Positions 21,759 through 39,272 of a DNA stretch of 64,000 nucleotides are shown one piece after another (the stretch's first letter is position 1; every line of letters starts with the position of its first letter). Source of the stretch: Gallionella sp. (GTDB lineage Bacteria > Pseudomonadota > Gammaproteobacteria > Burkholderiales > Gallionellaceae); the NCBI GenBank assembly GCA_028689145.1, contig JAQTWT010000003.1, positions 62,001 through 126,000 of the forward strand. The letters run 5' to 3'. The notes beneath the pieces were generated by a model, which was given only the letters and a program-made list of their open reading frames with translations, was not told the origin of the DNA and searched no databases. Both the position numbers and the translations under genes were made by a program.

Positions 21759-21781
21759 CGTCGTTATTTCCGGCTGGTTGC

Positions 21782-21867
21782 ATTCAACCCAAATAATCCA
21801 TTAGGCCGTCATACCGGCCTTCGCCGGTATGACGCAATGTTTTTCTAATGAACTATCTGGGTTCAAC
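21782..21867. repeat. Nested palindromic element downstream of the kinase-HDOD gene
   Basis: A perfect hairpin gtcataccggc-cttc-gccggtatgac at about 21808-21833 is nested inside imperfect outer arms (21782-21804 and 21845-21867, about 18 of 23 positions pairing, with ttcaaccca and tgggttcaa at the ends). It lies between two convergent genes. The outer arms and the GTCAT..ATGAC core make it look like a small mobile palindrome rather than a simple terminator, though it may terminate both genes. Confidence 0.68.
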
Positions 21868-21906
21868 GCAATCTGCCAGTCGTCGCGATAATGTCATATC
21901 AGTGAA

Positions 21907-22452
21907 TTACAGCTTGATGAAATGCTCGCGGTAGTGGCGCAGTTCCTGAATGGATTCGTAGATATCGGCCAGCGCCTCATGCTTGCCGTGTTTTTTCATA
22001 CCTTGCATGACTGATGGTTTCCAGCGTTTGGCGAGTTCCTTGACGGTGCTCACATCGAGGTTGCGGTAGTGGAAGTAGGCCTCGAATTTTGGCATCCAAC
22101 GCGCCAGAAAACGCCGGTCCTGACAAACCGAGTTGCCGCACATCGGCGAGATGCCGGTTGGCACATATTCCCTGAGAAATTCGATCATCTGCGCTTCAAC
22201 CTCGGCTTCGTTCAATACCGAAGCTTTTACCTTTTCGATCAGGCCGGACTTGCCGTGGGTGGATTTGTTCCATGCATCCATGCCGTCCAGCACGCTGTCG
22301 GGCTGGTGTACCACCAGCACCGGCGCTTCGGCGACCGTCTCCAGATTGCCGTCGGTGATGACAATGGCGGCCTCGATCACGCGGTCGGTGTCCGGGTTAA
22401 GTCCGGTCATTTCCAAGTCTATCCAGATAAGATTGTTTTGATTTTGTGCCAT
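21907..22452 (-). CDS. orn: Oligoribonuclease
   Basis: A 181-residue DEDDh 3'-5' exonuclease that finishes RNA decay by degrading dinucleotides, including pGpG from c-di-GMP breakdown. Its signatures are [20 protein letters not shown] (first D-E pair), [13 protein letters not shown] (second Asp) and the C-terminal H-x4-D region [20 protein letters not shown]. Length is exactly that of the family. It is divergent from the M48 peptidase gene across an 82-base gap. Its nearness to a c-di-GMP signalling cluster is worth noting because Orn clears the pGpG made by EAL enzymes, but that may be coincidence. Confidence 0.97.
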
Positions 22453-22534
22453 AATTGGTGCGCCTTAACATGATCTGCAAGGTGCGTATTGTGGCATAAC
22501 TGCACCCCCACGAAAAACTGAATCAACACTCCCA

Positions 22535-23779
22535 ATGACTGCGACACAATTTACTTTCATCTTCATCGCCGCACTATTGCTGACCACGCTTGCCAAAGTG
22601 TGGCTGGCGCGCCGCCACTTGGCCTACATCGCCGCGCATCGCGGTGCAGTGCCGCAGACGTTTCGCGAGAAGATACAGCTTGCCGAACACCAGAAGGCCG
22701 CCGACTACACGTCGGCCAAGACACGTTTTGGTATGCTCGGCATACTGTTCGATGCCGCACTGCTGCTGGCGTTTACGCTGGCTGGCGGGATTCAGCTGAT
22801 CGCCGATGTCTGCAATGGCTGGTTTGGTTCCCCTCTGGTGCAGGGGATGGCGACCATCGTTGCCGTGCTGCTGCTCTCGTCGCTGCTGGAAACCCCGTTC
22901 AGCCTGTACCGCACCTTTGTCATCGAGGCGCGTTTCGGTTTCAATAAAATGACCCCCGCGCTGTATCTGAGCGATGTGCTGAAAAGCCTGCTGCTCGGCG
23001 CGGTTATCGGCTTGCCGTTGCTGTTCGGCGTGCTGTGGCTGATGGAGCGTATGGGCACTTACTGGTGGCTGTATGTGTGGCTGGCGTGGATGGCGTTCAA
23101 TTTGCTTATCCTGTTCATCTATCCGTCTTTCATCGCGCCGCTGTTCAACAAGTTTACGCCGCTGCAGGACGAGGCGATGAAAGCGCGCATCGAAGCATTG
23201 CTCGATAAATGCGGCTTTGCCGCAAAGGGTTTGTTCGTGATGGATGGCTCGAAGCGCAGCTCGCACGGCAACGCCTACTTCACCGGCTTCGGCAAGACCA
23301 AACGCATCGTATTTTTCGACACGTTGCTGGAGCGGCTGAGCGGCGAGGAAGTCGAAGCGGTGCTGGCGCACGAACTCGGACACTTCAAACATCGCCATGT
23401 GTTAAAACGTATCGTGTCAACCTTTGCCATGAGTCTGGGCTTCCTGTGGCTGCTCGGCCAGTTGATGCAGACCGCGTGGTTTTATCAGGGGCTGGGTGTC
23501 AATACGCCTTCCACCGCGCTTGCGCTGCTGCTGTTCTTTATGATCCTGCCGATCTTCAGTTTTATGTTGCATCCGCTGCTGGCGGCTTATTCGCGCAAAC
23601 ACGAGTTTGAGGCCGATGCTTATGCCGCCAAACAAACCGCCGCGACCGATCTGGCGAATGCGCTGGTGAAAATGTATCAGGATAATGCCGCCACTTTGAC
23701 TCCCGATCCGCTATATTCCGCGTTCTACGATTCGCATCCGCCTGCGGCGGTGCGCATCGCCCGTCTTAAAATACAGTGA
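22535..23779 (+). CDS. M48 family zinc metallopeptidase (CAAX protease/Ste24-like)
   Basis: A 414-residue integral membrane peptidase. The zinc motif HELGH lies in VEAVLAHELGHFKHRH (about residue 280), with the downstream Glu in HEFEADAYA. An N-terminal Ste24-type domain has several membrane helices (TFIFIAALLLTTLAKVWLA, AALLLAFTLAGGIQLIA, LLLGAVIGLPLLFGVLWL), and two more follow the active site. Bacterial members probably take part in membrane protein quality control; the physiological substrate is not known. The small cytochrome c gene begins 10 bases after its stop, followed by phhB and rsgA, so it heads a compact operon-like run. Confidence 0.93.
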   Translation: MTATQFTFIFIAALLLTTLAKVWLARRHLAYIAAHRGAVPQTFREKIQLAEHQKAADYTSAKTRFGMLGILFDAALLLAFTLAGGIQLIADVCNGWFGSPLVQGMATIVAVLLLSSLLETPFSLYRTFVIEARFGFNKMTPALYLSDVLKSLLLGAVIGLPLLFGVLWLMERMGTYWWLYVWLAWMAFNLLILFIYPSFIAPLFNKFTPLQDEAMKARIEALLDKCGFAAKGLFVMDGSKRSSHGNAYFTGFGKTKRIVFFDTLLERLSGEEVEAVLAHELGHFKHRHVLKRIVSTFAMSLGFLWLLGQLMQTAWFYQGLGVNTPSTALALLLFFMILPIFSFMLHPLLAAYSRKHEFEADAYAAKQTAATDLANALVKMYQDNAATLTPDPLYSAFYDSHPPAAVRIARLKIQ

Positions 23780-23789
23780 GGAGAAAACC

Positions 23790-24095
23790 ATGAAATCGAT
23801 AATCGGACTAATGATGTTGTGTGCCACCACGGTAACCTTGGCCAACCCTTTTCCGGACGGCAATGCGCAGACCGGGCAGAAATTGTTCGAGCAATACAAA
23901 TGCAACCGTTGCCATGCGGCGATGCTGGGGGGCGACGGCAGCGCAATTTTCACCCGCGCGGATCGCAAAGTGCATAACGCCACCGAACTGGTCGAACAAA
24001 TGGAGGCATGCAGCGGCAATATCGGCGCAAACCTTACGCCGCAGGACAAGCAGCATCTTGGCGCGTATCTGAACCGTTATTACAACCTGAAATAA
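23790..24095 (+). CDS. Small periplasmic class I cytochrome c
   Basis: A 101-residue protein with a signal peptide (MKSIIGLMMLCATTVTLANP) and one haem motif CNRCH. The mature part is about 80 residues, as in small monohaem cytochromes. A Met at EQMEACSG could be the sixth ligand, but the assignment is not certain. It lies 10 bases after the M48 peptidase gene and 10 bases before phhB. The electron partner cannot be told from sequence; small cytochromes of this kind usually shuttle electrons in the periplasm. Confidence 0.9.
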   Translation: MKSIIGLMMLCATTVTLANPFPDGNAQTGQKLFEQYKCNRCHAAMLGGDGSAIFTRADRKVHNATELVEQMEACSGNIGANLTPQDKQHLGAYLNRYYNLK

Positions 24096-24105
24096 GGGGG
24101 ATGCC

Positions 24106-24444
24106 ATGAGTAACGTATGCGATCTCACCGGCAAGCAGTGCAAACCCTGCGAAGGGGGCGTGCCGCCCCTGACCAGTTTGCAGGCCGACGAATTGATGCT
24201 GCAACTCGAAGGATGGCAGCGTTTCGATCACCTGATCGGCAAGACCTACCGCTTCAAGGACTATTACCATACCATGGCTTTCGTGAATGCCATCGCATGG
24301 ATGTCGCACCGCGAGAACCATCATCCGGAACTCACGGTCGGCTACAACAGTTGCCAAGTTGAATACACCACCCACGCTATCCACGGCTTGTCGGAAAACG
24401 ACTTCATCTGCGCCGCAAAGGTGGATGCCCTGTTTAAACTTTGA
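24106..24444 (+). CDS. phhB: 4a-hydroxytetrahydrobiopterin dehydratase (pterin-4a-carbinolamine dehydratase)
   Basis: A 112-residue protein with the family signature HHPE followed by the conserved TH (ENHHPELTVGYN..VEYTTHAIHGLSENDFICAAK). The enzyme dehydrates 4a-carbinolamine tetrahydropterin; in bacteria lacking phenylalanine hydroxylase it can act in molybdopterin metabolism or as an accessory factor. No phenylalanine hydroxylase gene is in the window. The N-terminus contains a Cys pair (DLTGKQCKPCEGG), common in family members from Betaproteobacteria. Its end overlaps the TTG start of rsgA. Confidence 0.94.
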   Translation: MSNVCDLTGKQCKPCEGGVPPLTSLQADELMLQLEGWQRFDHLIGKTYRFKDYYHTMAFVNAIAWMSHRENHHPELTVGYNSCQVEYTTHAIHGLSENDFICAAKVDALFKL

Positions 24445-25325
24445 GCGAAGTTCTGCACGGACAGGTTGTTGCCGCATTTGGCCGCCAGTATCTGGCGCGT
24501 CTCGCGGACGGCAGCGAACTCGCCTGTTTGACGCGCGGCAAGAAGAGCGAGGTGGTGTGCGGCGACCGTGTGGAAATCAAAATCACCGGGGATGCCTCCG
24601 CCAATAGCGACGCGCAAGGTGTGATTGAACGCATCGAACCGCGCCGTTCGTTGTTGCACCGTTCCGATGCATTCCGCGAAAAGCTGATTGCCGCGAATGT
24701 CACGCAAGTCATCGTGGTGGTGGCAGCCGAACCGTCGTTCGACGACGGCTTGATGGCACGCTGTCTGGTCGCGGCGCAAGATCAGGGGCTGGAAGCGCTG
24801 ATCGTGCTGAACAAATGCGATCTGTCCGATGCGGCCGCCGCCGCGCGCAAACGGCTGAAACCCTATCGCGCCATCGGTTATCGCGTGCTGGAGCTCAGTG
24901 CCAGACAAGACGTGTCGCAACTGCGACCGCTGTTGCAAGACCATACCAGCGTACTGGTCGGCCAATCCGGCATGGGCAAATCCACCCTGATCAACGCGCT
25001 GTTACCCGATGCTCAGGCGGCCACGCGCGAAATTTCCGCCGCGCTGGACTCCGGCAAACACACCACCACCCATGCGCGGCTGTACCGGCTAGACGACAGC
25101 AGCTGTCTGATCGATTGTCCCGGCGTGCAGGCTTTCGGCCTGCACCACCTGAGCTTTGGCGGGATAGAAGAAGGTTTCGTCGAGTTTGCCAAGTATCGCG
25201 GCCAGTGCCGTTTCTACGATTGCCGCCACCTGCATGAGCCGGGTTGCGCGCTGCGCAATGCGGCGAATGCCGGAGAAATCGACGCGCGCAGACTGGAGCT
25301 GTTTCAGCAAATTACCGCGAAGTAG
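24441..25325 (+). CDS. rsgA: Ribosome small-subunit-dependent GTPase A
   Basis: A 294-residue circularly permuted GTPase that helps mature the 30S subunit. The order of motifs is permuted as expected: G4 (VLNKCDL) precedes G1 (GQSGMGKSTLIN) and G3 (DCPG). An N-terminal OB fold leads, and a C-terminal zinc-binding segment CRFYDCRHLHEPGC is present. Translation seems to begin at a TTG at 24441 overlapping the phhB stop; no better start is available before the OB fold. In many Proteobacteria rsgA follows the M48 peptidase, orn and phhB, matching this neighbourhood. Confidence 0.95.
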   Translation: MSEVLHGQVVAAFGRQYLARLADGSELACLTRGKKSEVVCGDRVEIKITGDASANSDAQGVIERIEPRRSLLHRSDAFREKLIAANVTQVIVVVAAEPSFDDGLMARCLVAAQDQGLEALIVLNKCDLSDAAAAARKRLKPYRAIGYRVLELSARQDVSQLRPLLQDHTSVLVGQSGMGKSTLINALLPDAQAATREISAALDSGKHTTTHARLYRLDDSSCLIDCPGVQAFGLHHLSFGGIEEGFVEFAKYRGQCRFYDCRHLHEPGCALRNAANAGEIDARRLELFQQITAK

Positions 25326-25355
25326 GCGAGCATAGGACAGCTTGACTGTACCGGC

Positions 25356-26015
25356 TCATTTTATGAACGGCGGTAGCCGCCCCGCCAGCGCTTCCAGGAG
25401 TTTAAGCTCGTCGTCATGGTGATCCTGCATCATGGCGGGCTGAATGCTTCCCGTACCGCCTGAGGTAATGTAAACAGGTTGATCGTGGTGCGCCGACTTC
25501 ATTCGTATCGGATCTTTCAGCTGTGTCGGGAGAGTGATTTCCGCTTCGCCGTAGCACAGGCATAAGTACGTCCTGTCGGATTCGGCCACGATGTGGCAGG
25601 CGGTGCCGCGTATGCCGATGGTGGCATGGGCAGTCTTTAGACTTTTATCGCCCGTACCAAACACCGACAGGATATGGCCGCTCACCACGCGCATGAAATC
25701 AGTGAAGGTTTCGGTACCGAATGACACCGTGCTGGATTCACGCTGCAGGAAGGCGTTAGAGCCGATGACGTAGATAGCTTCCGCGCCCTTTGCAGTGGTA
25801 ACGGTCTGCCCGGGTTTGACCGTGTTTCCCTTGTACGCACGATGCCCGTTCACGCTAACCCCGCCGGTGACGGAAATCATCCCCTGTTTCAGGTCGAACG
25901 AATTGGCGGCGAGCGCCTGCTGCACCAGCCCCAGCATTCCGCAACTGTGCAGCAATCCGGCTGCCGCTATTTTTTTCAGTAATTCGCGCCGTTCAAGCGA
26001 AGTTGTTTCGGTCAT
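25356..26015 (-). CDS. FecR-domain protein with a twin-arginine signal
   Basis: A 219-residue exported protein. The N-terminus ERRELLKKIAAAGLLHS reads as a Tat signal, ending near a QALA cleavage site. A FecR-type beta-rich domain follows (GVSVNGHRAYKGNTVKPG, AIYVIGSNAFLQRESSTVSFG and GIRGTACHIVAESD). It lacks the N-terminal cytoplasmic segment and the TonB-signalling context of true FecR anti-sigma regulators; stand-alone FecR proteins are often surface or adhesion-related. No sigma or receptor gene is adjacent. Function unknown. It is convergent with rsgA. Confidence 0.82.
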   Translation of the reverse strand: MTETTSLERRELLKKIAAAGLLHSCGMLGLVQQALAANSFDLKQGMISVTGGVSVNGHRAYKGNTVKPGQTVTTAKGAEAIYVIGSNAFLQRESSTVSFGTETFTDFMRVVSGHILSVFGTGDKSLKTAHATIGIRGTACHIVAESDRTYLCLCYGEAEITLPTQLKDPIRMKSAHHDQPVYITSGGTGSIQPAMMQDHHDDELKLLEALAGRLPPFIK

Positions 26016-26160
26016 GACAAATATTCCTCAAAAATATGCGGCAAGGCACGGACGTAATGTTGGGTCAGGCGGTAAACAGACAGGTTACCAGTCTTCCGGC
26101 GTTGGCGGGGATCACAAACGTTGAGAAACTGATGGCTCTTAATATTGCGGGGTTCCGAGA

Positions 26161-26790
26161 TTATTGATAGAGCGCAGGAAATTTTACGCGCAATTGTTTC
26201 AGCTTTGGCATGTCGTGAAAAACGATATAGGGCTGGTAAGGATGCAGCGCCAGATAGTTCTGATGATAACTTTCGGCAGGGTAAAACCGTGGCAGAGGAA
26301 CGACCTGCGTGACGATGGGTGCGGGAAAAGTGCGCGCGGCGGTGAGTTGGCCGATATAGCTTTGCGCGATGCGCTGCTGTTCGGCGCTGGTGTAAAAGAT
26401 CGCCGAACGGTATTGGCTGCCGACATCCGGGCCCTGATAGTTGAGTTGGGTGGGGTTATGCGCCACGCTGAAGAACACTTGCAGCAACTGCTGGTAGGAA
26501 ACCCGCGCCGGATCGAAACGGACACGCACCGCTTCGGCATGTCCGGTATCGCCGTTGCCGACTTGTTCGTAATGCGCCGTATCCGCGCTGCCGCCTGCAT
26601 AGCCCGATACCACTTCGGACACGCCTTTGACGTGTTTGAACACCGCGTCCACGCCCCAGAAACAACCTCCCGCAAATACCGCTGTTTGTTCGGCCGGTGC
26701 CGCGTTGGCGTTTGATAGTGCGGTCAGGGCGAGCATGAAGAAAATGCCGCCGTTTACCAGATAATTAAAGATAAGTTTGATCGTTGCCAT
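26161..26790 (-). CDS. msrA: Exported peptide methionine-S-sulfoxide reductase
   Basis: A 209-residue MsrA with the catalytic GCFWG (AGGCFWGVDAVF near residue 44) and the conserved GYAGG, GHAEAVRV and YHQNYL segments. A hydrophobic N-terminal stretch (LVNGGIFFMLALTALSNANAA) marks it as periplasmic. I chose the ATG at 26790, which has aaggagt upstream; an upstream ATG at 26811 overlaps the dipZ stop and lacks such a site. It begins 17 bases after dipZ, so the two are co-transcribed. It reduces Met-S-sulfoxide in exported proteins; electrons probably come from the DipZ thioredoxin domain. Confidence 0.93.
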   Translation of the reverse strand: MATIKLIFNYLVNGGIFFMLALTALSNANAAPAEQTAVFAGGCFWGVDAVFKHVKGVSEVVSGYAGGSADTAHYEQVGNGDTGHAEAVRVRFDPARVSYQQLLQVFFSVAHNPTQLNYQGPDVGSQYRSAIFYTSAEQQRIAQSYIGQLTAARTFPAPIVTQVVPLPRFYPAESYHQNYLALHPYQPYIVFHDMPKLKQLRVKFPALYQ

Positions 26791-26807
26791 GACAGGACTC
26801 CTTGTAA

Positions 26808-28508
26808 TCAACCGAAAGTAAAGGCAAATGCCTCCGCTCCGGCATCCGGAAATTCGATGCGGAAAGTGCGGCCAGTGATCTTGCTAGTTTGCCGGATAAG
26901 CTGGTACAGCCGCTGTTCGCGGATCAGGCCGTTGCCTTGCGCGTCAACATCCGCACCGTGATCCGCGCCGGGGGGTGCGCCGTCCAGAGTGACTCTGAAA
27001 CGAAGCGGCTGGTTGTTGCGCGCCCCCATCACCAGATGCAGGTCGCGTCCCTGAAAGTGGTAACTGATTGCCCCGCCGGAGGCTTTCAGCGCCGCGGATT
27101 CGGGGGATACCAGCCACTTGCCGCTGAATGCCCACTGGTTAAGTTCGAGTGCTCGGGGCGCGCTGTATTGCATCGCTGAATCTTGATGGATAGGCTCGGG
27201 CGAAGCCAGATTCTCCTGGCGCGCATAACCCAGATAGGTCTCCGGCGAGCGCTCCGCATCCGCGGCGGCTGCCGTTGCGCCGGTTCCCGCCACCTGCACG
27301 GTTTTATCGGACATGGCCAGCTTGCCGTGATGCGCTTCCCTGAGCAGTGCCTGAATCATCCGCTCGGTTTCCTGATAAGCGCCTTCGCCGAAATGCTGAT
27401 GGCGAATCTTGCCGTTGGCATCGACCAGATAATGCGCGGGCCAGTAGTTGTTGCGGAAGGCGTTCCAGATGGCGTATTGGTTGTCCATCGCCACCGGATA
27501 GGTGATGCCCAGATCGCGGATCGCCTGTTCGACATTGCGCCGGTCCTTTTCAAAGGCAAATTCCGGCGCGTGGATGCCGATGATGACCAGGCCCTGGTCG
27601 CGATACTTTTCATGCCATGCTTTCAGGTAGGGCAGGGTGCGCAAGCAGTTGATGCACGAGTAAGTCCAGAAATCCACCAGCACCACCTTGCCGCGCAGCA
27701 TCTCGTTGTTCAGCGGCGGCGAGTTCAGCCACAGCGTCGCGCCGCTCAAGGGCGGCATCGCGGGCGGCTCGGCAACGAGGATCGCGCCGGACGGTTGTTC
27801 CAGCTGTTCGAGCAGTTTCTGCTCGGTGGCGGCGGTGTTTAAAAAATCAAACTGTGACAGGAAGCGTGTATCCCAGCCCAGCGCGATGACGACTACACCC
27901 GCCACCACAGCCGCACCCAGAGCGCGGCGCAGCCATTCCTCGGCACCCAGGCCGCGCTTCATCAGGCTGAATACCCGACCACCGGCCAGCAGTGCCACGC
28001 CCAGCGAGGTTGCGGCACCGGCGGCAAACACCAGCAGCAACAGCGCGCTGTAAAGGTTTGCACCGTTCAAGGCGGCACCGGCCAATACCAGTCCGAGGAT
28101 CGGCCCGGCGCAGGGTGCCCACAAAAAGCCGACGGCCACGCCCAGCAGCAGCGAGCCTTTCACGCTGCCCTGCTGGTCGGCGCGTTGTTGCAAACGTCCG
28201 CCCAACGTGACGAACGGGCGCATCAGGCGTTCCGCCAGAGCGGGGGAAATCAGCGCCAAACCCAGCACCAGCAGCAGAGCCATCGCCGCATAGCGGCCAT
28301 ACTGGTTGGCCTCGACCAGCCAAGCCCCGCCTACCGCCGCCAAGCTGGCCAGCAGCGTGAAAGTGGCTGCCATGCCCAGCAGAATCGGCAGTCCGCTACG
28401 GCGAAACGACTGGTCGGAACGGGCAAAGATGAAAGGCAACACCGGCAGCACACAGGGACTGAAGATGGTAAGCAAACCGCCGATATAGGCCAGAAAAATA
28501 ATTAACAT
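26808..28508 (-). CDS. dipZ: DipZ-like transmembrane thiol-redox protein (CcdA/DsbD-like membrane domain plus periplasmic thioredoxin)
   Basis: A 566-residue protein. The N-terminal ~235 residues form a CcdA-type six-helix domain with Cys in IFSPCVLPVLPF and WAPCAGPILG. A periplasmic thioredoxin/TlpA-like domain follows, with the WTYSCINCLRTLP active site, and then a C-terminal beta domain typical of DipZ (WAFSGKWLVSPESAAL). It should carry reducing power from cytoplasmic thioredoxin to the periplasm. The ATG at 28508 starts the first helix; the longer ORF begins upstream within a repeat. Placed between msrB and msrA, it is the obvious electron supplier for both reductases, which is inference from context and the known chemistry. 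Confidence 0.92.
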   Translation of the reverse strand: MLIIFLAYIGGLLTIFSPCVLPVLPFIFARSDQSFRRSGLPILLGMAATFTLLASLAAVGGAWLVEANQYGRYAAMALLLVLGLALISPALAERLMRPFVTLGGRLQQRADQQGSVKGSLLLGVAVGFLWAPCAGPILGLVLAGAALNGANLYSALLLLVFAAGAATSLGVALLAGGRVFSLMKRGLGAEEWLRRALGAAVVAGVVVIALGWDTRFLSQFDFLNTAATEQKLLEQLEQPSGAILVAEPPAMPPLSGATLWLNSPPLNNEMLRGKVVLVDFWTYSCINCLRTLPYLKAWHEKYRDQGLVIIGIHAPEFAFEKDRRNVEQAIRDLGITYPVAMDNQYAIWNAFRNNYWPAHYLVDANGKIRHQHFGEGAYQETERMIQALLREAHHGKLAMSDKTVQVAGTGATAAAADAERSPETYLGYARQENLASPEPIHQDSAMQYSAPRALELNQWAFSGKWLVSPESAALKASGGAISYHFQGRDLHLVMGARNNQPLRFRVTLDGAPPGADHGADVDAQGNGLIREQRLYQLIRQTSKITGRTFRIEFPDAGAEAFAFTFG

Positions 28509-28518
28509 GAGGAACTCC

Positions 28519-28589
28519 GTAGGGGCGTATGGCAATACGCCCGCTGCATTATTCACACAAGACGAGGGCGTATTGCCATACGCCCCTAC
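28519..28589. repeat. Palindrome of the GTAGGGGCG family between msrB and dipZ
   Basis: Two 24-base arms (28519-28542 and 28566-28589) pair perfectly around a 23-base loop; the ends read gtaggggcg and cgcccctac. The right arm contains the cta triplet at 28586-28588 that forms the TAG stop codon of msrB, and the left arm ends 11 bases before the dipZ start. Confidence 0.82.
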
Positions 28590-29119
28590 GCGGGTACAAA
28601 GCGTAGCGCCACGGTGTTCATGCAATAACGCAAACCGGTCGGTTTCGGGCCGTCATTAAACACATGGCCCAGATGCGCATCGCATAACGCGCATTGCACC
28701 TCGGTGCGTGTCATACCGAACAGATAATCGGTTTTTTCGCGAACATTTTCGGCGGCAATCGGCTGCCAGAAACTCGGCCAGCCGGTTCCCGAATCGAACT
28801 TGGTACGCGCATCAAACAGCGCGTTGCCGCAGCATACGCAGCGATACAGTCCGGGGTCGTGCCGGTCGTAACCGGGCTGCGAAAAAGCACGCTCGGTACC
28901 CTGTTCGCGGGTCACCTGATAGGCCAGCGGCGATAGCACCCTGCGCCATTCGGCATCTTTGCTTACCTTGACCAGCGTGGCGCGTCCCAGCGCTTTGCCG
29001 TTATCGGTAAATTGCATGATGGTTACTTTGTCGTTGCCGGATGTTGTGCCGGCGAACGAACGCGTGGCACAAGCTGCGGCGATACCGGATAAGGCCAATA
29101 AAAATTGTCTGCGCTGCAT
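28586..29119 (-). CDS. msrB: Exported peptide methionine-R-sulfoxide reductase
   Basis: A 177-residue MsrB with an RR-containing export signal (MQRRQFLLALSGIAAACA). The two zinc Cys pairs are present (RCVCCGNALF and VQCALCDAHLGHV), as is the GTGWPSFWQPI block. The catalytic Cys lies in GLRYCMNTVALRF; the usual next-but-one residues N-S are N-T here. Its stop codon lies within a palindromic repeat, so the last residues (FVPA) may have been reshaped by that insertion. It is the upstream partner of dipZ and msrA on the same strand, forming a periplasmic methionine repair system. Confidence 0.93.
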   Translation of the reverse strand: MQRRQFLLALSGIAAACATRSFAGTTSGNDKVTIMQFTDNGKALGRATLVKVSKDAEWRRVLSPLAYQVTREQGTERAFSQPGYDRHDPGLYRCVCCGNALFDARTKFDSGTGWPSFWQPIAAENVREKTDYLFGMTRTEVQCALCDAHLGHVFNDGPKPTGLRYCMNTVALRFVPA

Positions 29120-29161
29120 GATATTTTTCTCCAGCTAGTACCCTGTAACACCTGTTTTTTC

Positions 29162-29261
29162 GTAGGTTGGGTTAGCGGTTTCATCGCGTAACCCAACAGT
29201 CTTGAAGATCACTTGCTTGGTTATGTTGGGTTACGGCATACACCCGCCTAACCCAACCTGC
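29162..29261. repeat. Nested palindrome of the GTAGGTTGGGTTA type
   Basis: Outer arms gtaggttgggttagcgg and ccgcctaacccaacctgc enclose inner arms gcgtaacccaac and gttgggttacgg. It occupies the gap between the MXKDX-repeat gene and msrB and is a typical dispersed extragenic palindrome. I cannot tell if it terminates transcription there. Confidence 0.75.
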
Positions 29262-29271
29262 AAAACTGTTG

Positions 29272-29550
29272 TTACATCCCCTGGTCTTTTGACATCGAGT
29301 CCTGCTTTTTCATGGCATCCTGCTTTTTGGGGTCTTTCTTCATGGCATCGTTGTGCATGTGCTTCTTGTGGGGCATGGGTTTCTTTTCGCCCATCGTGTC
29401 TTTTTCCATTGAATCTTTACTCATGGCGTTCTTGCTCATGGCATCTTTGTGCATGGAACCTTTGTCCATGTGCATGGCCTCCTGGGCAAATGCGAGGCTG
29501 CCTGCCGTTGCCAAACAGAACGAGAGCAATAGGGAAGAAAGTTTGTTCAT
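29272..29550 (-). CDS. Pentapeptide MXKDX-repeat secreted protein
   Basis: A 92-residue protein with a signal peptide (MNKLSSLLLSFCLATAGSLAFA) and a mature part built from imperfect five-residue repeats of the form M-x-K-D-x or M-x-K-x-x (DKGSM, HKDAM, SKNAM, SKDSM). It is therefore almost entirely Met, Lys, Asp, Ser and His. This matches the known penta_MXKDX repeat family of unknown function. A Met- and His-rich exported peptide next to methionine sulfoxide reductases could act as a sacrificial oxidant sink or a metal binder; that is speculation. The ATG at 29550 has an aaggaga site; a longer upstream start was rejected. An ECF-type promoter lies 94-119 bases upstream. Confidence 0.88.
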   Translation of the reverse strand: MNKLSSLLLSFCLATAGSLAFAQEAMHMDKGSMHKDAMSKNAMSKDSMEKDTMGEKKPMPHKKHMHNDAMKKDPKKQDAMKKQDSMSKDQGM

Positions 29551-29643
29551 TGGAATCTCCTTGGGTAAGTAAATAAATGGCATCATCGCAAATGGTTTGG
29601 TATCGTAAAAAAACAGCCATTACCAGACCTCCGCGTAAGTGGA

Positions 29644-29669
29644 TTCGTGCGGGTAATGAAAAAGGTTAC
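29644..29669 (-). promoter_or_regulatory. Candidate ECF sigma factor promoter (GTAACC-N16-CGAA)
   Basis: On the - strand, GTAACC at 29669-29664 is followed by exactly 16 bases and CGAA at 29647-29644, the -35/-10 shape expected for ECF sigma factors with an AAC-type -35. It points toward the MXKDX gene and, behind it, msrB-dipZ-msrA, all on the same strand. It lies in the divergent gap in front of the ECF sigma gene itself, which makes it a likely target of that sigma factor. Confidence 0.6.
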
Positions 29670-29700
29670 AGGGAACCTCCAAAAATTTTACGGGGCACGG

Positions 29701-30240
29701 GTGACAGATAAAACCGGCAATTTTGCAGCGTTGATGAGGCAGGCTCAGAGCGGAGACCAGCGCGCCTACGCCGAGCTGCTGCGTGAAACTTCGCGCTTGC
29801 TGCGCCCGTTTCTGGCGAAACGCCTCAGCTTCAGCAGCGAGGTGGACGACCTGCTGCAGGAAATATTGATCTCCATACATAAGGCGCGGCATACCTACGA
29901 CTGCATTCGTCCTTACAAGCCCTGGGTATATGCCATTGCCAAGTTCCGCTTGCAGGATTATTTACGCGCGCATTATTCCGACCAGTTGCTCCTGGCTGTT
30001 GATTTCGACGAGCTGGAAGAAAGTTTGCCGGATCATGTAACCGAAACTGACTTCAGTTACGAATCTATCAGCGGGGAAGTGCAAAAACTTCCGGAAAAGC
30101 AGGTGACCATCCTGCGGCTGATGCATCAGGAGGGTTATACCGCCAAAGAAGTGGCTGAAAAACTGGGCATGAACGAGTCTGCGGTGAAGGTGGCAGCGCA
30201 CCGCGCCTACAAAGTATTGAGGGAAAAACTGGAAAGATAA
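29701..30240 (+). CDS. ECF-type RNA polymerase sigma factor
   Basis: A 179-residue sigma factor. Region 2 covers AYAELLRETSRLLRPFLAKR..VDDLLQEILISIHKARHTYD..PWVYAIAKFRLQDYLR; region 4 (LPEKQVTILRLMHQEGYTAKEVAEKLGMNESAVKVAAHRAYKVLRE) holds the helix-turn-helix. No ECF-long extension is present. I prefer the GTG at 29701 because the protein then begins with the family-typical T-D-x-x-G-x-F-A-A-L-M; upstream starts at 29647 or 29656 would run the coding region across the divergent promoter. It overlaps the next gene (TAATG), a DUF1109/NrsF anti-sigma protein. Together they form a SigF/NrsF-type pair, known in Caulobacter to answer metal or oxidative stress. Confidence 0.92.
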   Translation: MTDKTGNFAALMRQAQSGDQRAYAELLRETSRLLRPFLAKRLSFSSEVDDLLQEILISIHKARHTYDCIRPYKPWVYAIAKFRLQDYLRAHYSDQLLLAVDFDELEESLPDHVTETDFSYESISGEVQKLPEKQVTILRLMHQEGYTAKEVAEKLGMNESAVKVAAHRAYKVLREKLER

Positions 30241-30875
30241 TGGCAAATATTGACGAGCTGATCGACGGGCTGGCACAGGATGCTGCGGCAGTAAAACCGG
30301 CACCGCACCCATTTAAGCTGAGCATCAAATGGATGGGATGGGCAATGGCTTATCTCATCATCGCGCTTGCGCTTTCCGGCCTGCGCCCGGATTTGCTGCT
30401 AAAGCTGCATGAGCCATTGTTTGCCGCCGAGATCGCGGCGCTGGCCGGCATCCTGGCGGCCACATCAGTCAGCGCCGCCTTGCTGTCGTTTCCCGATCTG
30501 CACCAGAAGCGCGGCATGGCCTTCGCGCCGGTAATTGCGTTCGCGCTGTTGCTGCCGGTCATTTTTATTGCGTGGCATGCCGATAATCCGCCGGCACCGT
30601 TACCAGTGCACAGTTTTGAATGCACACTATGTATCACGCTGGTGGCGCTATTGCCTGCAGCATGGATTTTTTACGCGATGCGAAAATTCGCCAGCACCCA
30701 TTATCACTGGGCGGGCAGCATCGCGCTGCTGTCCGCCTTTAGTGTCGGGGCGTTGTGGCTGAGGCTGCATGAGGAGAACGACTCGATCATGCATGTCGTC
30801 GAGTGGCATTACCTGCCCATGATCGTTTTCGGGATCGCCGGCTGGTGGCTGGGCAAGAAAATCTTGAAGTGGTGA
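30240..30875 (+). CDS. nrsF: NrsF-like membrane anti-sigma factor (DUF1109)
   Basis: A 211-residue protein with six predicted membrane helices after a short cytoplasmic N-terminus (MANIDELIDGLAQDAAAVKPAPHP), the architecture of DUF1109/NrsF. The N-terminal segment and a Cys pair in HSFECTLCITL (family members carry conserved Cys pairs reported to matter for sensing) are visible. NrsF proteins hold a cognate ECF sigma factor at the membrane and release it under stress. The ATG overlaps the sigma stop codon, supporting translational coupling. The 89 bases downstream hold no recognisable element. Confidence 0.9.
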   Translation: MANIDELIDGLAQDAAAVKPAPHPFKLSIKWMGWAMAYLIIALALSGLRPDLLLKLHEPLFAAEIAALAGILAATSVSAALLSFPDLHQKRGMAFAPVIAFALLLPVIFIAWHADNPPAPLPVHSFECTLCITLVALLPAAWIFYAMRKFASTHYHWAGSIALLSAFSVGALWLRLHEENDSIMHVVEWHYLPMIVFGIAGWWLGKKILKW

Positions 30876-30964
30876 CGCTGTATTTTGCCGACCCGTGCTA
30901 CGCAAGCGGTAAGGTTGTGTGCTATCTTTCGGGTCATGTGAATCGTTAACGCTTTCCCGATACC

Positions 30965-32005
30965 ATGAGCCTGTTCGCCCTGATCGCCGCGCTGTTGCTG
31001 GAACAGCTCCATCCGCTGTCCTCGCGTAAATACCTGCACGGCTGGCTGTCCGGCTACGTCGATTTCTTTCAGCAGCACTTCAATGCCGGACAGCACAAAC
31101 ACGGCAAGATCGCATGGCTGCTGGCGGTGCTGCCGCTGGTGCTGGGGGTGGCGCTACTGTCCTGGCTGTTGTATCACGCGCATCCGGTATTTGCCTGGGC
31201 CTTCAACGTGCTGGTGTTGTATCTCACCATGGGCTTCCGCAGATTCAGCCATTATTTCACCGACATCCATCACGCGTTGCGCGACGGCAAGCTGGACGAA
31301 GCACGCGGGTTGCTGGCCAAATGGCGCGGTATTCCGTCGCATGAACTGAATGCCGAGGAGGTGGCGCGTGTCACCATCGAGGAGGCGCTGATTGCCTCGC
31401 ATCGCAACGTGTTCGGCGTAATCGTATGGTTCGTGTTGTTCAGTGTGGGCGGACTGGGCGGCGCGGCGGGTGCATTGTTGTACCGTCTCGGGCAATTTTT
31501 GCGCAAACGCTGGGGCGGCGAGGACGACACGGTGTGGCGCGACATCCCGCTGGCTGAGCGCTTGCCTCATGCGCGTTCCCGCAGCCGTTCATCCGCTCCG
31601 GTGATGTACCGAGGCAGCGAAGAAGACGAGGCGGAACTGCGCGAGTTCGGCGGTTTCGCGCGACAGGTGTTCTATCTGCTGGAATGGCTGCCGGTGCGCA
31701 TGACCGCGCTGACCTTCGCCATCGTCGGCGACTTCGAGGATACCGTGTATTGCTGGCGCACCCAGGCGGCCAGCTGGCCGGACAGCGAAACCGGAATACT
31801 GTTGGCCAGCGGTGCCGGAGCGCTGGGCGTGCGCCTCGGCATGGCGATACCGCAAGGCGGCTTGCCGTTCGACAGGGCCGAACTGGGCGTGGGCGACGAG
31901 GCCGATGCCGACTTCATGCGCAGCACCATCGGGCTGGTGTGGCGTTCGGTGGTGTTCTGGCTGATTTTGTTGTTGCTGCTGACATTGGCGAGTTTGCTGG
32001 GGTAG
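30965..32005 (+). CDS. CobD/CbiB-family membrane protein
   Basis: A 346-residue integral membrane protein. Family-typical segments include the N-terminal LIAALLLEQLHPLS, the block GFRRFSHYFTDIHHALRDGKLDEAR, the EEALIASHRNVFGVIVWF motif (cf. EAS.NxxDGxxAP in CbiB) and several hydrophobic helices including a C-terminal one. True CobD/CbiB makes adenosylcobinamide phosphate in B12 synthesis, but betaproteobacterial members of this subgroup often stand apart from cob genes, as here, so the activity is uncertain. A relation to AmpE-like proteins is also possible. A short hairpin (32011-32031) follows the stop. Confidence 0.8.
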   Translation: MSLFALIAALLLEQLHPLSSRKYLHGWLSGYVDFFQQHFNAGQHKHGKIAWLLAVLPLVLGVALLSWLLYHAHPVFAWAFNVLVLYLTMGFRRFSHYFTDIHHALRDGKLDEARGLLAKWRGIPSHELNAEEVARVTIEEALIASHRNVFGVIVWFVLFSVGGLGGAAGALLYRLGQFLRKRWGGEDDTVWRDIPLAERLPHARSRSRSSAPVMYRGSEEDEAELREFGGFARQVFYLLEWLPVRMTALTFAIVGDFEDTVYCWRTQAASWPDSETGILLASGAGALGVRLGMAIPQGGLPFDRAELGVGDEADADFMRSTIGLVWRSVVFWLILLLLLTLASLLG

Positions 32006-32010
32006 CGCGG

Positions 32011-32031
32011 CTGTATTACATCGTAATACAG
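32011..32031. terminator. Short perfect hairpin after the CobD/CbiB-like gene
   Basis: ctgtattac-atc-gtaatacag pairs over nine bases directly after the stop at 32005. There is no T-run behind it, so action as an intrinsic terminator is doubtful. Confidence 0.35.
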
Positions 32032-32090
32032 AGTTTGAATCATGATGCATGTTTGTTAGTCCATAGAAAATATAAAGATCGCGCTGCCTG

Positions 32091-33686
32091 ATGCTGTTCA
32101 ACTCCTACGGCTTCATTTTCCTGTACCTGCCCGCCGTGCTGCTGGGATTCTTCTGGCTGGCGCGGATCAGCCATGCCTTTGCCGCCGGATGGCTGGCGCT
32201 GGCCTCACTGTTCTTCTACGGCTACTGGAATCCGGCCTATGTCGGGCTGCTGCTAGGCTCGATCATCTGCAACTATGCGTTCGGACTGTGGATCGGCAAA
32301 ATCAGGATCGGGGAGCGAGGGCCGAGGAGCGAAGAACCAGAGAATGAGGGACAGCAGAAGCGCAAAAAACAACTGCTCACTTTCGCCATTGCCGCCAACC
32401 TGCTGCTGCTGGGCTACTACAAATACGCCAACTTTTTTGTCGGCAGCATCAACGGGATCGCAGGCACGCAGTGGAGCCTCGGCGAAATCATCCTGCCGCT
32501 GGGCATCTCGTTCTTCACCTTCACCCAGATCGCCTATCTGGTCGATACCTATCAGGGCAAGGTCAAGGAATACAACTTTGTCCACTACCTGCTGTTCGTC
32601 ACCTACTTCCCGCACCTGATCGCCGGCCCGGTACTGCACCACCGGGAAATGATGCCGCAGTTTGCACTCGCCTCCACCTACCGCTTCAGCTACGAGAACC
32701 TGTCGGTAGGCCTGACCATCTTCTTCATCGGCCTGTTCAAAAAAGTCATCCTCGCCGACGGTCTGGCGGTTTACGTCGGGCCGGTATTCGCCGCACCCGC
32801 CGCCGGGGTCGATCTGACCTTCATCGACGCATGGGGCGGCGCGCTGTGCTACACCCTGCAACTGTATTTCGACTTCTCCGGCTACTCGGACATGGCGATC
32901 GGCCTGTCCCGGATGTTTGGCGTGACGCTGCCGCTGAACTTCCACTCGCCGTACAAGTCGGCCAACATCATCGAATTCTGGCGGCGCTGGCACATGACCC
33001 TGTCGCGCTTCCTGCGCGACTATCTGTATATCCCGCTCGGCGGCAACCGCTACGGCACGCCGCGCCGCTACCTAAACCTGATGGCCACCATGCTGCTCGG
33101 CGGACTGTGGCACGGTGCGGGCTGGACGTTCGTGATATGGGGCGCACTGCATGGCCTGTATCTGGTGGTCAATCACGGCTGGCACAGCTTGCGCAGGATG
33201 GTCGGGCAAAACCCTGCAATGCCATTGTCCAAGCCGCTGCATATGCTGGCGGTGTTGTTCACCTTTCTTGCGGTGGCGGCGGCATGGGTGGTATTCCGCG
33301 CCGACAATCTCGACACCGCCACGGCAATGCTCAAGGCGATGGCGGGTATGAACGGCTTGGTGCTGCCGGATGCATGGCTGGCAAAATGGGGCGGGGCAGG
33401 GCAGTGGCTGGCGCAACAGGGCGTGTCGTTCGGCGCGACCAACGGCCTGATCATGGGCGGGGCGATCAACTGGATCTGGATCTCGCTGCTTGTCGTGTGG
33501 CTTGCGCCCAACACCCAGCAGATCATGGCATCCTACAAACCGGCGCTGGATGTGCCCGAGGGCGGCAAGGTAAGACGATTATTGTGGAATCCGTCTCAAG
33601 TTTGGTTGGCCGCAAGTGTGTTCTGCTCTGTATTTGCAACTATTTCTATTTCCAAGTTTTCTGAGTTTATTTATTTTCAGTTTTGA
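32091..33686 (+). CDS. MBOAT family membrane O-acyltransferase (AlgI/DltB-like)
   Basis: A 531-residue multi-pass membrane protein. It has the MBOAT signature region NIIEFWRRWHMTLSRFLRDYLYIPLGGNRYG and the catalytic His in LLGGLWHGAGWTFVIWGALHG near residue 340. Such enzymes pass acetyl or other acyl groups across the membrane to modify alginate, cellulose, peptidoglycan or teichoic acids. The next gene overlaps by its start and encodes an SGNH-like partner, the usual two-part arrangement. No polysaccharide synthase genes are nearby, so the acceptor is unknown. A charged segment IRIGERGPRSEEPENEG around residues 75-90 looks longer than usual between helices and may derive from an inserted repeat. 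Confidence 0.92.
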   Translation: MLFNSYGFIFLYLPAVLLGFFWLARISHAFAAGWLALASLFFYGYWNPAYVGLLLGSIICNYAFGLWIGKIRIGERGPRSEEPENEGQQKRKKQLLTFAIAANLLLLGYYKYANFFVGSINGIAGTQWSLGEIILPLGISFFTFTQIAYLVDTYQGKVKEYNFVHYLLFVTYFPHLIAGPVLHHREMMPQFALASTYRFSYENLSVGLTIFFIGLFKKVILADGLAVYVGPVFAAPAAGVDLTFIDAWGGALCYTLQLYFDFSGYSDMAIGLSRMFGVTLPLNFHSPYKSANIIEFWRRWHMTLSRFLRDYLYIPLGGNRYGTPRRYLNLMATMLLGGLWHGAGWTFVIWGALHGLYLVVNHGWHSLRRMVGQNPAMPLSKPLHMLAVLFTFLAVAAAWVVFRADNLDTATAMLKAMAGMNGLVLPDAWLAKWGGAGQWLAQQGVSFGATNGLIMGGAINWIWISLLVVWLAPNTQQIMASYKPALDVPEGGKVRRLLWNPSQVWLAASVFCSVFATISISKFSEFIYFQF

Positions 33687-33697
33687 TCAATCAATAT

Positions 33698-34846
33698 ATG
33701 ACACTTAAAAAGTTCGCTATTAAGTTTCTTTGCGGATATTTTTTTCTGCTTGCTTTGATTGGAATATTCAATCGTGTTGTTGATCCGTCTTGGTATTACC
33801 GCGATATAGAAATTAAAGGCTTTAATGCTATAAAACCAGAGTTTAGATCTTTTGAGCGAGATATCAAACCGGCTCTGCTGATGCGTGATCAAGTAGAAGC
33901 GATTATTCTGGGCAGTTCGTATTCAGAAATTGGATTTAACCCTACCAACGTTAATTTCACCGATCAGGGTCGTTTAAAAAGTATGAATTTTGCATTTGCA
34001 ATGGCATCGTGGGAAAAGGTGCAGTGCGACTTTGAATTTGCCTTGGACAATGCGCCTATAAAACGCGCCTTGGTAGGTTTTCATCCAGGAAGCCTGCCTA
34101 TTGCCAATTGTGCGAAAGATTTTGCATCATTGGGGCAGTTAAATACCATAGACTTGCTATTGAACTACTCTGTGCTTGAATATTCTGTTAAGACTATTCA
34201 AAAACAGCAAGCCCAAGCTGTTACTCATACGCCAGAAGGAATGTATTTCTACAATCGTTGGTTGAAATATATCTTCCTTGCTCGAGATGATTTGCGAAAT
34301 CAGCTATCAGTATGCGCAAAAACTGGAAAGACAAATAAATTCTCGGATACTTTGGATTCTGAAAGCGAACTGGATTTAAGTGGATTGCAGCGCATGATTG
34401 AATCGGCCAGAGCGCATGGTGTCGAGCTTGTGTTATTCGCTTATCCACAACATGCTTATTCTTTGGAATTGGAAATGCAATGTGGCGAGCATAAAAAAAA
34501 GTGGCAGGCCATGAAGAAAATCGCTGCGTTACTTGATGCGGAATCTGCCAAGCATGTACGCGCGTGGCATTTTTATAGCTATAACGACGTGACGGCCGAT
34601 TCTATTTTAAGGGGAGCCAATTATTGGCAAGATACTAAACACTTTAATTTTGAAGTAGGCAATATGATGCTGGCAGATATGTTTAACGAAACCGCCAACA
34701 AACCAGTACTTGGAAAACCGCTGACTTCAAACAACATTCAAACCGACTATCAAGAATTATTGCTGGAGCGAGCCGAGTATCAATTGCGGCATCCAGAATT
34801 TAGCGCTGCACTGTTAGAAATAATCAACTTGGAACAAGTCCCGTGA
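33698..34846 (+). CDS. SGNH-hydrolase-like membrane-anchored protein, partner of the MBOAT acyltransferase
   Basis: A 382-residue protein with one N-terminal membrane anchor (KFLCGYFFLLALIGIFN). An SGNH-like block I is seen in AIILGSSYSEIGFNP and a block V-type D-x-x-H in WQDTKHFNF, as in AlgX/AlgJ-type or DltD-like acyl transfer partners. The start at 33698 (ATG) is preferred to the TTG at 33683, which lies four bases inside the MBOAT gene. Base composition is clearly more A+T-rich than the neighbours (many aaa, att and gaa codons), suggesting a different origin or relaxed selection. I cannot name a family with certainty. Confidence 0.72.
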   Translation: MTLKKFAIKFLCGYFFLLALIGIFNRVVDPSWYYRDIEIKGFNAIKPEFRSFERDIKPALLMRDQVEAIILGSSYSEIGFNPTNVNFTDQGRLKSMNFAFAMASWEKVQCDFEFALDNAPIKRALVGFHPGSLPIANCAKDFASLGQLNTIDLLLNYSVLEYSVKTIQKQQAQAVTHTPEGMYFYNRWLKYIFLARDDLRNQLSVCAKTGKTNKFSDTLDSESELDLSGLQRMIESARAHGVELVLFAYPQHAYSLELEMQCGEHKKKWQAMKKIAALLDAESAKHVRAWHFYSYNDVTADSILRGANYWQDTKHFNFEVGNMMLADMFNETANKPVLGKPLTSNNIQTDYQELLLERAEYQLRHPEFSAALLEIINLEQVP

Positions 34847-34859
34847 ACCATAACTAGGC

Positions 34860-34983
34860 CGCAGAGCGGAAGCATAAGTAAGCCGAAAGTAGGCTGAATG
34901 AGGCAGTTGTTGGCGAGTTGCTGGAAGCATAACGTGGCCGCTGTAATTCGGAAGCATATCCGAGCCGAAACGGAATATTTATG
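34860..34983 (+). repeat. Imperfect direct repeat behind the SGNH-like gene
   Basis: Two copies of a roughly 37-base unit can be aligned: one with ggccgcagag-cggaagcata and a second with ggccgctgta-ttcggaagca, both continuing into a-gccgaaa. They occupy the 234-base gap before the hemerythrin gene. No coding potential is seen. Its nature is unknown; a decayed mobile fragment is possible. Confidence 0.4.
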
Positions 34984-35080
34984 GTTCCAGTCACAGAATA
35001 ACCCGTATGCATATTGATTTATCAATGTAGTTCTACTTCAGGGTGCGAATCCGTTTTGTGAAATTTACACTTGCAAAATA

Positions 35081-35509
35081 TCAACACGATTCTTGATAAG
35101 TTTGGCATCCAGCGTTTTTTGATTTCATCGCGATAAATCCGGCGGTGACGAAGTCCATAGTGCTTACATGATTGACGAACCAGTTGCCCACGGCGCGCTC
35201 CAGCCACTCGCGTAATGTTTCGTTGTCGTGAGTTTGCTTCCAGTCACCGATCCGTGCGGACATCTCCGCCAATACGTTGTCATGTTCGCCTTTGTGCATG
35301 GGGTAGGCAAAGAAGAGTGTCTCCTGCATGAGCCGCTCTTCTTCTGCGAAATGATGGCGGGTGTGCTCCAGTAATTGGTCGAGCAGGGTATTGATCGCGG
35401 CAGTATCGGATGGCGCGGACAGCAGGTCGAGCAGCTTGCCGCGCAGATCGATGAATTCGGCATGGTCGCGGTTCATGAAATCGAGTGCGACTTGTGGGTA
35501 ATTCAGCAT
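35081..35509 (-). CDS. Bacteriohemerythrin
   Basis: A 142-residue four-helix diiron protein that binds O2 reversibly. The ligand pattern is visible: an early His in MNRDHAEFIDL, H-x3-H/E in HTRHHFAEEERLM, H-x4-H in HKGEHDNVL, and the final H-x4-D in NHVSTMDF. Length is normal for stand-alone bacteriohemerythrin. A role in oxygen delivery to oxidases or oxygen sensing is known for the family and would suit a microaerophilic organism. The C-terminal tail is unusually Cys-containing (GCQTYQESC). It is transcribed leftward, away from leuS. Confidence 0.93.
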   Translation of the reverse strand: MLNYPQVALDFMNRDHAEFIDLRGKLLDLLSAPSDTAAINTLLDQLLEHTRHHFAEEERLMQETLFFAYPMHKGEHDNVLAEMSARIGDWKQTHDNETLREWLERAVGNWFVNHVSTMDFVTAGFIAMKSKNAGCQTYQESC

Positions 35510-35618
35510 ATGCGTTCTTGTGTTCTTTGTGTATCAATGGGTTATGTCGCGGTATGATCCGCGTCAGGTGCGGATTCTACGCGGACTTTGTGCGCTCAAC
35601 ACATGGGCGGTTAAACAT

Positions 35619-38574
<2,956 letters not shown>

Positions 38575-38583
38575 GTTTGTTGC

Positions 38584-38753
38584 GTAGGGGCGGGTCTAAG
38601 ACCCGCCCTTTGGATTGGAATTATATAGTTGGCTATTATCGTACCGTTCGCACTGAGGTATCAAAGGGCATTTTAGCGCAAGCAGGGCTTCGATACCTCA
38701 GCCCGAACGGATTTTTAATGGATGACTCGGGAAGGTCTGAGACCTTCCCCTAC
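38584..38753. repeat. Cluster of three palindromes between leuS and lptE
   Basis: Three units lie side by side. The first, 38584-38609, is gtaggggcgggtct-aag-acccgccct. The second, 38644-38710, has arms ccgttcg..gaggtatc and gatacctcag..cgaacgg around a 30-base centre. The third, 38729-38753, is gggaaggtct-ga-gaccttccc, ending in ctac. The first and third share the gtagggg/cccctac ends of the family also seen at 28519 and 44987, as if a palindrome had been split by insertion of the second. Confidence 0.7.
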
Positions 38754-38784
38754 AGTTGATCTCTATAAGGTTTGGGGAGAAATC

Positions 38785-39270: not shown

Positions 39271-39272
39271 TC

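Follow-up and report, generated by a model that had tools for sequence, protein, structure and literature searches.

The window analysed here is a stretch of 64,000 nucleotides from a Gallionella sp. contig (JAQTWT010000003.1), whose positions 26161 to 30875 carry what is likely an envelope methionine-repair unit controlled by an extracytoplasmic function (ECF) sigma factor of the ECF16 type, SigF, and its anti-sigma factor NrsF. The unit is real and conserved: its genes, their likely export signals, its promoter and the linkage among its members are directly observed, and both layout and promoter recur in relatives. Leftward, on the minus strand, run the genes for an MXKDX (MrpX-like) secreted Met-rich peptide (29272..29550; TIGR02953, 55.4 bits against a cut-off of 41), MsrB (28586..29119; PF01641, 166 bits; TIGR00357 over its cut-off), DipZ (26808..28508; Pfam DsbD_TM, thioredoxin-like and C-terminal PF17991 domains) and an exported MsrA (26161..26811; PF01625, 200 bits against 23.7; TIGR00401 over its cut-off). 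Rightward, on the plus strand, lie the ECF sigma factor gene (29647..30240; SigF/ECF16-like, with Sigma-70 regions 2 and 4 and an uncertain start) and, directly 3' of it and meeting it at 30240, nrsF (30240..30875; PF06532, 143.6 bits against 26.8), which encodes a protein of the glutamate type (E-type) described below. All six genes, together with the two directions of transcription, had been named in an earlier, sequence-only reading of this DNA, and the Pfam and TIGRFAM matches bear it out. The ECF16-type promoter GTAACC-N16-CGAA that it had pointed toward the leftward genes is found as an exact match ahead of that operon at 29644..29669 on the minus strand, with a spacer of exactly 16 nucleotides. 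As the listed sigma start at 29647 overlaps this motif, translation more likely begins at a later codon, for instance the GTG at 29701; the probable start of MsrA is the ATG at 26790, and for DipZ the ATG at 28508 is more likely than the upstream TTG of the open reading frame listing.

By analogy with studied relatives, the membrane protein NrsF would hold the sigma factor at rest, until NrsF is changed by a stress on the envelope, for which an oxidant generating methionine sulfoxide (such as hypochlorite or peroxide) is the likeliest candidate and copper a possible one. The freed sigma factor would then start transcription at GTAACC-N16-CGAA. The exported MXKDX peptide would serve as a sacrificial sink offering many methionines, MsrA and MsrB would reduce the two sulfoxide stereoisomers, and DipZ would pass electrons from cytoplasmic thioredoxin to both enzymes.

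Promoter motif and linkage in relatives

With spacers of 15–17 nucleotides allowed, the pattern occurs twice in the window, where 0.13 matches are expected, and the copy ahead of the leftward operon equals the published ECF16 target consensus, tGTAACc-N16-CGAA (PMC3420878). The other match (30037-30063, spacer 17) falls within the sigma gene, 5' of nrsF, and is probably due to chance. Across 71 NrsF loci (991 kb), the exact motif yielded 90 matches, and 61 of these stand on the same strand and −60 to 350 bp before an MXKDX, Msr, DipZ, YedZ1, bufferin or sigF gene. The downstream gene was MXKDX in 18 cases, the sigma gene in 17, a bufferin in 12, msrB in 5, msrA in 4, yedZ1 in 3 and dipZ in 2; a further 2 matches precede nrsF, 12 precede other genes, and for the remaining 15 no gene was called within range. 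Two scrambled controls, run on the same loci, matched 0 and 4 times, never ahead of a gene. Comparison across relatives, as the sequence-only reading had proposed, shows the motif to be conserved ahead of target genes, which supports its suggestion that the sigma factor switches on the set.

In the genome to which the window belongs, a 2.74-Mb draft that is 96.7% complete, the pattern gave 8 matches, against 2 for a reversed control. Only the window copy continues with the T run GTAACCTTTTT, which is common to many relatives, so that the regulon may consist of the leftward operon alone; the other seven sites were checked only for reading frames crossing them (131 to 686 residues). Two sets of inverted repeats separate the genes of the operon. 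A perfect 25-bp inverted repeat at 28518-28590, between dipZ and msrB, has arms 23 bp apart and overlaps the msrB end; it scores terminator-like on the minus strand and has no further copy in the window at three or fewer mismatches. Between msrB and the MXKDX gene, nested inverted repeats with the cores GTTGGGTTA and TAACCCAAC occupy 29158-29265 and themselves contain GTAACCC, for which reason the −10 part has to be included in any search for the motif.

NrsF occurs in 58 of the 158 genomes of the window's family. MXKDX matches were obtained in 14 of the 158, 8 of them over the cut-off; those in G011 and G078, in frames of 801 and 1146 residues, were judged spurious. Neighbourhoods were read for 35 of the 60 NrsF places in the family, and for places outside the order 80 stretches were taken (one, G893, belongs to the same order), with six partial or weak ones left out; L030, which shares a contig with L018, was left out of the counts. 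In 20 further family NrsF loci, MsrB and DipZ were each found 15 times, MsrA 12 times, bufferin 9 times, a FecR-like protein 8 times and MXKDX once, the last two counts not being frequencies, as the loci were hand-picked from NrsF genomes lacking an MXKDX match and 8 were chosen for a close FecR-like match. It follows from these numbers that the sigma pair of this family is usually accompanied by MsrB-DipZ-MsrA, and the Met-rich peptide is an add-on.

Among 154 NrsF genes, 37 have an MXKDX gene within 5 kb, and 32 of these 37 also have MsrA/B or YedY/Z nearby, versus 15 of the 117 without MXKDX; the figure of 32/37 is biased upward, since 10 of the 154 genes entered the set through MXKDX or through their similarity to the window. 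A tree-aware sign test of this linkage gave a median p of 0.016 (range 0.002-0.29 over 200 pairings of 15 pairs). The association of MXKDX with repair genes that the earlier reading had proposed to look for in related genomes is therefore present. A mutual exclusion of DipZ and YedY as alternative modules was not significant (10 pairs, with on average 1.6 opposite, 0.2 same and 8.3 showing no difference). Msr genes accompany 17 of 27 E-type NrsF genes versus 11 of 117 others (144 NrsF-drawn genes), a difference behind which stands a single clade and which is not independent evidence.

Some relatives combine modules in other ways. The locus L016 (3095-7684) holds MsrA-DipZ-MsrB and YedZ1-YedY1 modules together with MXKDX and the sigma pair, with exact motifs before yedZ1 and MXKDX and none before msrB. 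At L069 (8749-9075), an HvfA-like oxazolone/thioamide metallophore precursor (NF050137, over its cut-off) and an MNIO gene lie behind an exact motif beside SigF/NrsF; metallophore clusters of this type are also found in L070, with the motif, and in L063, L082 and L085.

The NrsF sensor and the nature of the signal

NrsF-type proteins of Caulobacter, Bradyrhizobium and Brucella carry two cysteines that are treated as the switch (PMC3511200, PMC3420878, PMC8315932). Without C179, OsrA cannot be released by hydrogen peroxide (H2O2), and it needs C129 to hold the sigma factor (PMC3420878). In Caulobacter NrsF (C131/C181), basal repression is affected when either or both cysteines are changed, and the response persists in single mutants, an observation used by the authors as an argument against an internal disulfide (PMC3511200). 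The window NrsF lacks this pair and has Cys128 (codon at 30621) with Glu178 (30771), alongside His124 (30609), His185 (30792) and His190 (30807); it also has a Cys131, absent from its relatives L029 and L030. Its score against the equivalog model NF042994 (AntiSigF_NrsF) of NCBIfam is 45.5 bits, where 300 are required. Cys128 is present in all of 174 NrsF sequences, among which the window's family is over-represented, while the residue at position 178 varies: Cys (106), Glu (57), His (9) and Pro (2). The two Pro rows reflect a one-column shift relative to the His rows and were counted with them, giving 11. The second cysteine is thus missing from 68 of the 174 PF06532 members and was not treated as defining the Pfam family.

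The 57 Glu-type proteins keep His185 and His154 in 57/57 cases and His190 and His124 in 56/57. Hydropathy fits six membrane helices; a low-confidence model built from four sequences has six long helices and a mean predicted local distance difference test (pLDDT) value of 52, for which reason no ligand distances were read from it; a search for solved structural relatives gave 0 matches at E 0.1. On the hydropathy profile, residue 154 would be on the cytoplasmic side, and residues 124, 128, 178, 185 and 190 at the periplasmic face or close to it. In a tree of NrsF that leaves out the 12 of 154 genes without a paired sigma factor, non-Cys178 goes with His190 in 45 of 46 rows and Cys178 with another residue than His190 in 89 of 96. 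A tree-aware test of this pairing found only 3 independent pairs, a number at which significance cannot be reached. The Glu type, with the window NrsF in it, forms one clade (36 of 142 rows) with a Shimodaira-Hasegawa-like approximate likelihood ratio test (SH-aLRT) value of 99 in a quick tree search from which the trait columns were left out. The Glu/His pattern accordingly reflects inheritance as much as repeated evolution.

The sequence-only reading held that NrsF senses oxidation as the characterised ones are thought to; since the equivalent of OsrA C179 is a glutamate here, this is not supported as written. Its view of the function otherwise comes near what relatives show, and copper had not been considered. 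Tentatively, NrsF may comprise two sensor designs, the second, to which the window NrsF would belong, having Glu (or, in a neighbouring group, His) at position 178 with fixed histidines on the periplasmic side and forming a metal-thiolate site from Cys128, Glu178, His185, His190 and perhaps His124, although we rate this as rather unlikely. As part of the same doubtful proposal, either oxidation or metal occupancy of the putative site could release the sigma factor. One sensor reading both copper and hypochlorite would explain why sigma pairs of the same kind serve bufferin as well as methionine-repair operons. Published inducers for this sigma group are hypochlorous acid (HOCl), H2O2, chromate, cadmium and copper (PMC8315932, PMC3511200, PMC3420878, PMC8224329).

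The signal could instead be a soft metal, above all copper, bound by NrsF through the same residues (Cys128, Glu178, His185, His190, perhaps His124) so that the sigma factor is freed; the Met/His-rich peptide would then buffer periplasmic Cu(I) and the Msr enzymes would mend collateral damage. This possibility, to which we give less than even chances, gains from the fact that position 178 is occupied only by possible metal ligands (Cys, Glu or His, the shifted rows included) and that the E-type fixes three histidines. The same pair and motif also precede bufferin-type operons, bufferin genes being present in 9 of the 20 picked family loci, and bufferins are reported to chelate copper (PMC12452194). 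Moreover, the Caulobacter SigF regulon is copper-induced, and loss of sigF leads to copper sensitivity (PMC8224329). However, only one clade has the Glu/His set fixed, which shared descent explains as well, and no structure shows these residues meeting, the model having a pLDDT of 52. Brucella BcrS and Bradyrhizobium EcfF, in turn, answer to HOCl and H2O2 (PMC8315932, PMC3420878). Nor does a bufferin gene stand at the window's own locus: none of the labels of such a unit (DUF2282 precursor, MNIO enzyme, DUF2063, DoxX) was found among the 20 genes called in window positions 20001-40000, although many sister loci have them.

We consider it improbable that the repair genes are expressed constitutively as an operon for envelope maintenance, with the sigma pair controlling only the MXKDX gene or something else. 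The 152-bp gap with nested inverted repeats between MXKDX and msrB and the terminator-like repeat between msrB and dipZ would fit such an arrangement, and in L022 and L073 msrB has its own motif, so that MXKDX and msrB may be transcribed separately. On the other side, the motif precedes msrB, dipZ or the FecR-like gene in several loci without an MXKDX gene (L083, L087, L202, L203, L208, L216), and no sigma-70-like promoter was detected in 26000-30960, where shuffled sequence gave 2.5, a weak argument by itself. Control of the methionine-repair genes by the SigF/NrsF pair is the account we favour, with several observations weighing against it. The window NrsF has Glu in place of the cysteine that OsrA needs for its H2O2 response, and the MXKDX gene is optional, being present, adjoining the sigma gene or pair, in approximately 12 of the 58 NrsF genomes of the family. 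In addition, 7 of 15 further family MsrB loci (L204, L207, L210, L211, L213, L214, L215) have no exact motif before msrB, which also speaks for constitutive expression, and sigF has no exact motif ahead of it, either in the window or in those family loci that were fetched, unlike in Brucella and Bradyrhizobium.

Peptide, repair enzymes and a neighbouring FecR-domain protein

The N-termini of MsrA, MsrB and the MXKDX peptide look, by eye, like export signals, and the MsrB start is twin-arginine-like (QRRQFLL), a strict pattern for such a start matching 19 of the 36 MsrB frames in the fetched loci; the envelope location ascribed to the Msr enzymes by the earlier reading is supported on these grounds. 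Cut by eye, the mature peptide comprises 70 residues, including 13 Met and 5 His, with no Cys and no aromatic residue. Thirteen methionines would arise with P = 2e-8 at a background of 2.5% Met, which we take to be the usual value.

MsrB contains CxxC pairs, Cys166 (RYC) of the C-terminal catalytic type and an SGTGWPSF stretch without Cys at that place, the cysteines presumably having their usual roles. At what we assume to be the position of the usual second cysteine, 44 of 51 MsrB frames of the fetched loci have Thr and 1 has Cys, with 6 unreadable. Only one cysteine occurs in the window MsrA; of the 46 MsrA frames found in the fetched loci, 45 could be read, and 40 of these likewise have just one. 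Both enzymes of these loci (26161-29119 in the window) thus resemble one-cysteine types. DipZ has membrane-domain cysteines 19 and 133 and a CINC at 285-288 in its thioredoxin-like domain; as the Msr enzymes seem to lack the second cysteine for the usual internal disulfide, direct reduction of the sulfenic acid would fall to DipZ. A second MsrA and a second MsrB in the genome are unlinked to the operon; this other MsrA keeps a further cysteine, and as its frame begins with a hydrophobic stretch, it may be exported too.

Following msrA, a gene for a FecR-domain protein (25356..26015, minus strand), absent from the list of the earlier reading, probably belongs to the unit. Its N-terminus is twin-arginine-like by eye. 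The Pfam FecR match is weak in 7 of 7 aligned members (E 0.022 for the window protein, below the cut-off), and the alignment has an invariant CxC (C152, C154) and HHD. A homologue lies inside the operon in 6 relatives' loci, 4 times between the peptide gene and msrB and twice between msrA and msrB, and after bufferin genes in 2 more. When FecR-like and NrsF positions were compared by hand, 14 of the 20 strongest matches in the 158 genomes were within 5 kb of NrsF and 1 adjoined a sigma gene at the end of a contig. Seven of these 15 linked matches are the query's own members; among the 13 independent ones, 8 are linked and 5 unlinked. FecR-like matches are common as such, 121 of 158 genomes having some match. 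A search for solved structural relatives gave 0 matches; a role for the protein as a metal- or redox-binding partner in the periplasm is no more than a guess.

Related systems and significance

The general design is already known from Azospira, Brucella and Bradyrhizobium, with MsrB-DipZ-MsrA standing here where YedY/YedZ stand elsewhere. The sigF/nrsF/mrpX/yedY1/yedZ1 locus of Azospira suillum PS resembles the window in its ECF sigma factor with NrsF, its Met-rich peptide gene and its periplasmic methionine sulfoxide reduction (PMC4623255, PMC8315932). Its reductase is YedYZ, a molybdoenzyme with a cytochrome, whereas the window has MsrA, MsrB and DipZ: no YedY/MsrP-type molybdoenzyme with cytochrome, as in the MrpX/YedYZ hypochlorite-scavenging system, is present at the locus, and the 96.7% complete genome has no match to NF003767 at E 0.001, a model with which YedY1-type proteins are recovered from relatives at E values of 1e-18 to 1e-20. 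The perchlorate reduction islands of Propionivibrio militaris MP and Dechlorobacter hydrogenophilus LT-1 have the same sigF/nrsF/mrpX setting and are said to hold "also" msrA and msrB, whose products are predicted to be periplasmic; dipZ, dsbD and thioredoxin have 0 occurrences in the main text of that paper (PMC4623255).

In Brucella melitensis, the sigma/anti-sigma pair bcrS/abcS adjoins the MXKDX operon bcrXQP, with which it acts under HOCl, and the bcrX promoter opens with GTAACCTTTTTC, the same as the window promoter; it differs in its MsrQ/MsrP-type reductase, in an anti-sigma factor with both cysteines (C129, C179) and in a motif belonging to the sigma gene itself (PMC8315932). The ECF16 pair EcfF/OsrA of Bradyrhizobium japonicum controls, under H2O2, Msr genes, a DsbD-like membrane protein and a periplasmic thioredoxin, the last two proposed by the authors as the electron source, but the genes are scattered over the genome, OsrA has two cysteines and the parts of the paper drawn on here name no MXKDX peptide (PMC3420878). 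Haemophilus RpoE2 and Neisseria Ecf/SigE are likewise ECF sigma factors controlling MsrAB, with other anti-sigma factors (in Haemophilus a 67-residue cytoplasmic protein), and the parts of these sources used here name no NrsF (PMC7907618, PMC3420878).

What looks new is an NrsF without the second, sensing cysteine. No description of the E-type was found in one open-licence literature library that cannot be searched by meaning, which is not proof of absence. The natural absence of a cysteine regarded as the sensor deserves a second look, and with Glu or His at the second position in 68 of 174 NrsF proteins, the question of oxidant or metal can be tested with natural variants and not with mutants alone. 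More broadly, the repair module under one kind of sigma factor can be molybdenum-based (YedYZ) or thiol-based (MsrB-DipZ-MsrA), and the thiol-based alternative could give the same defence to cells that lack repair based on molybdenum.

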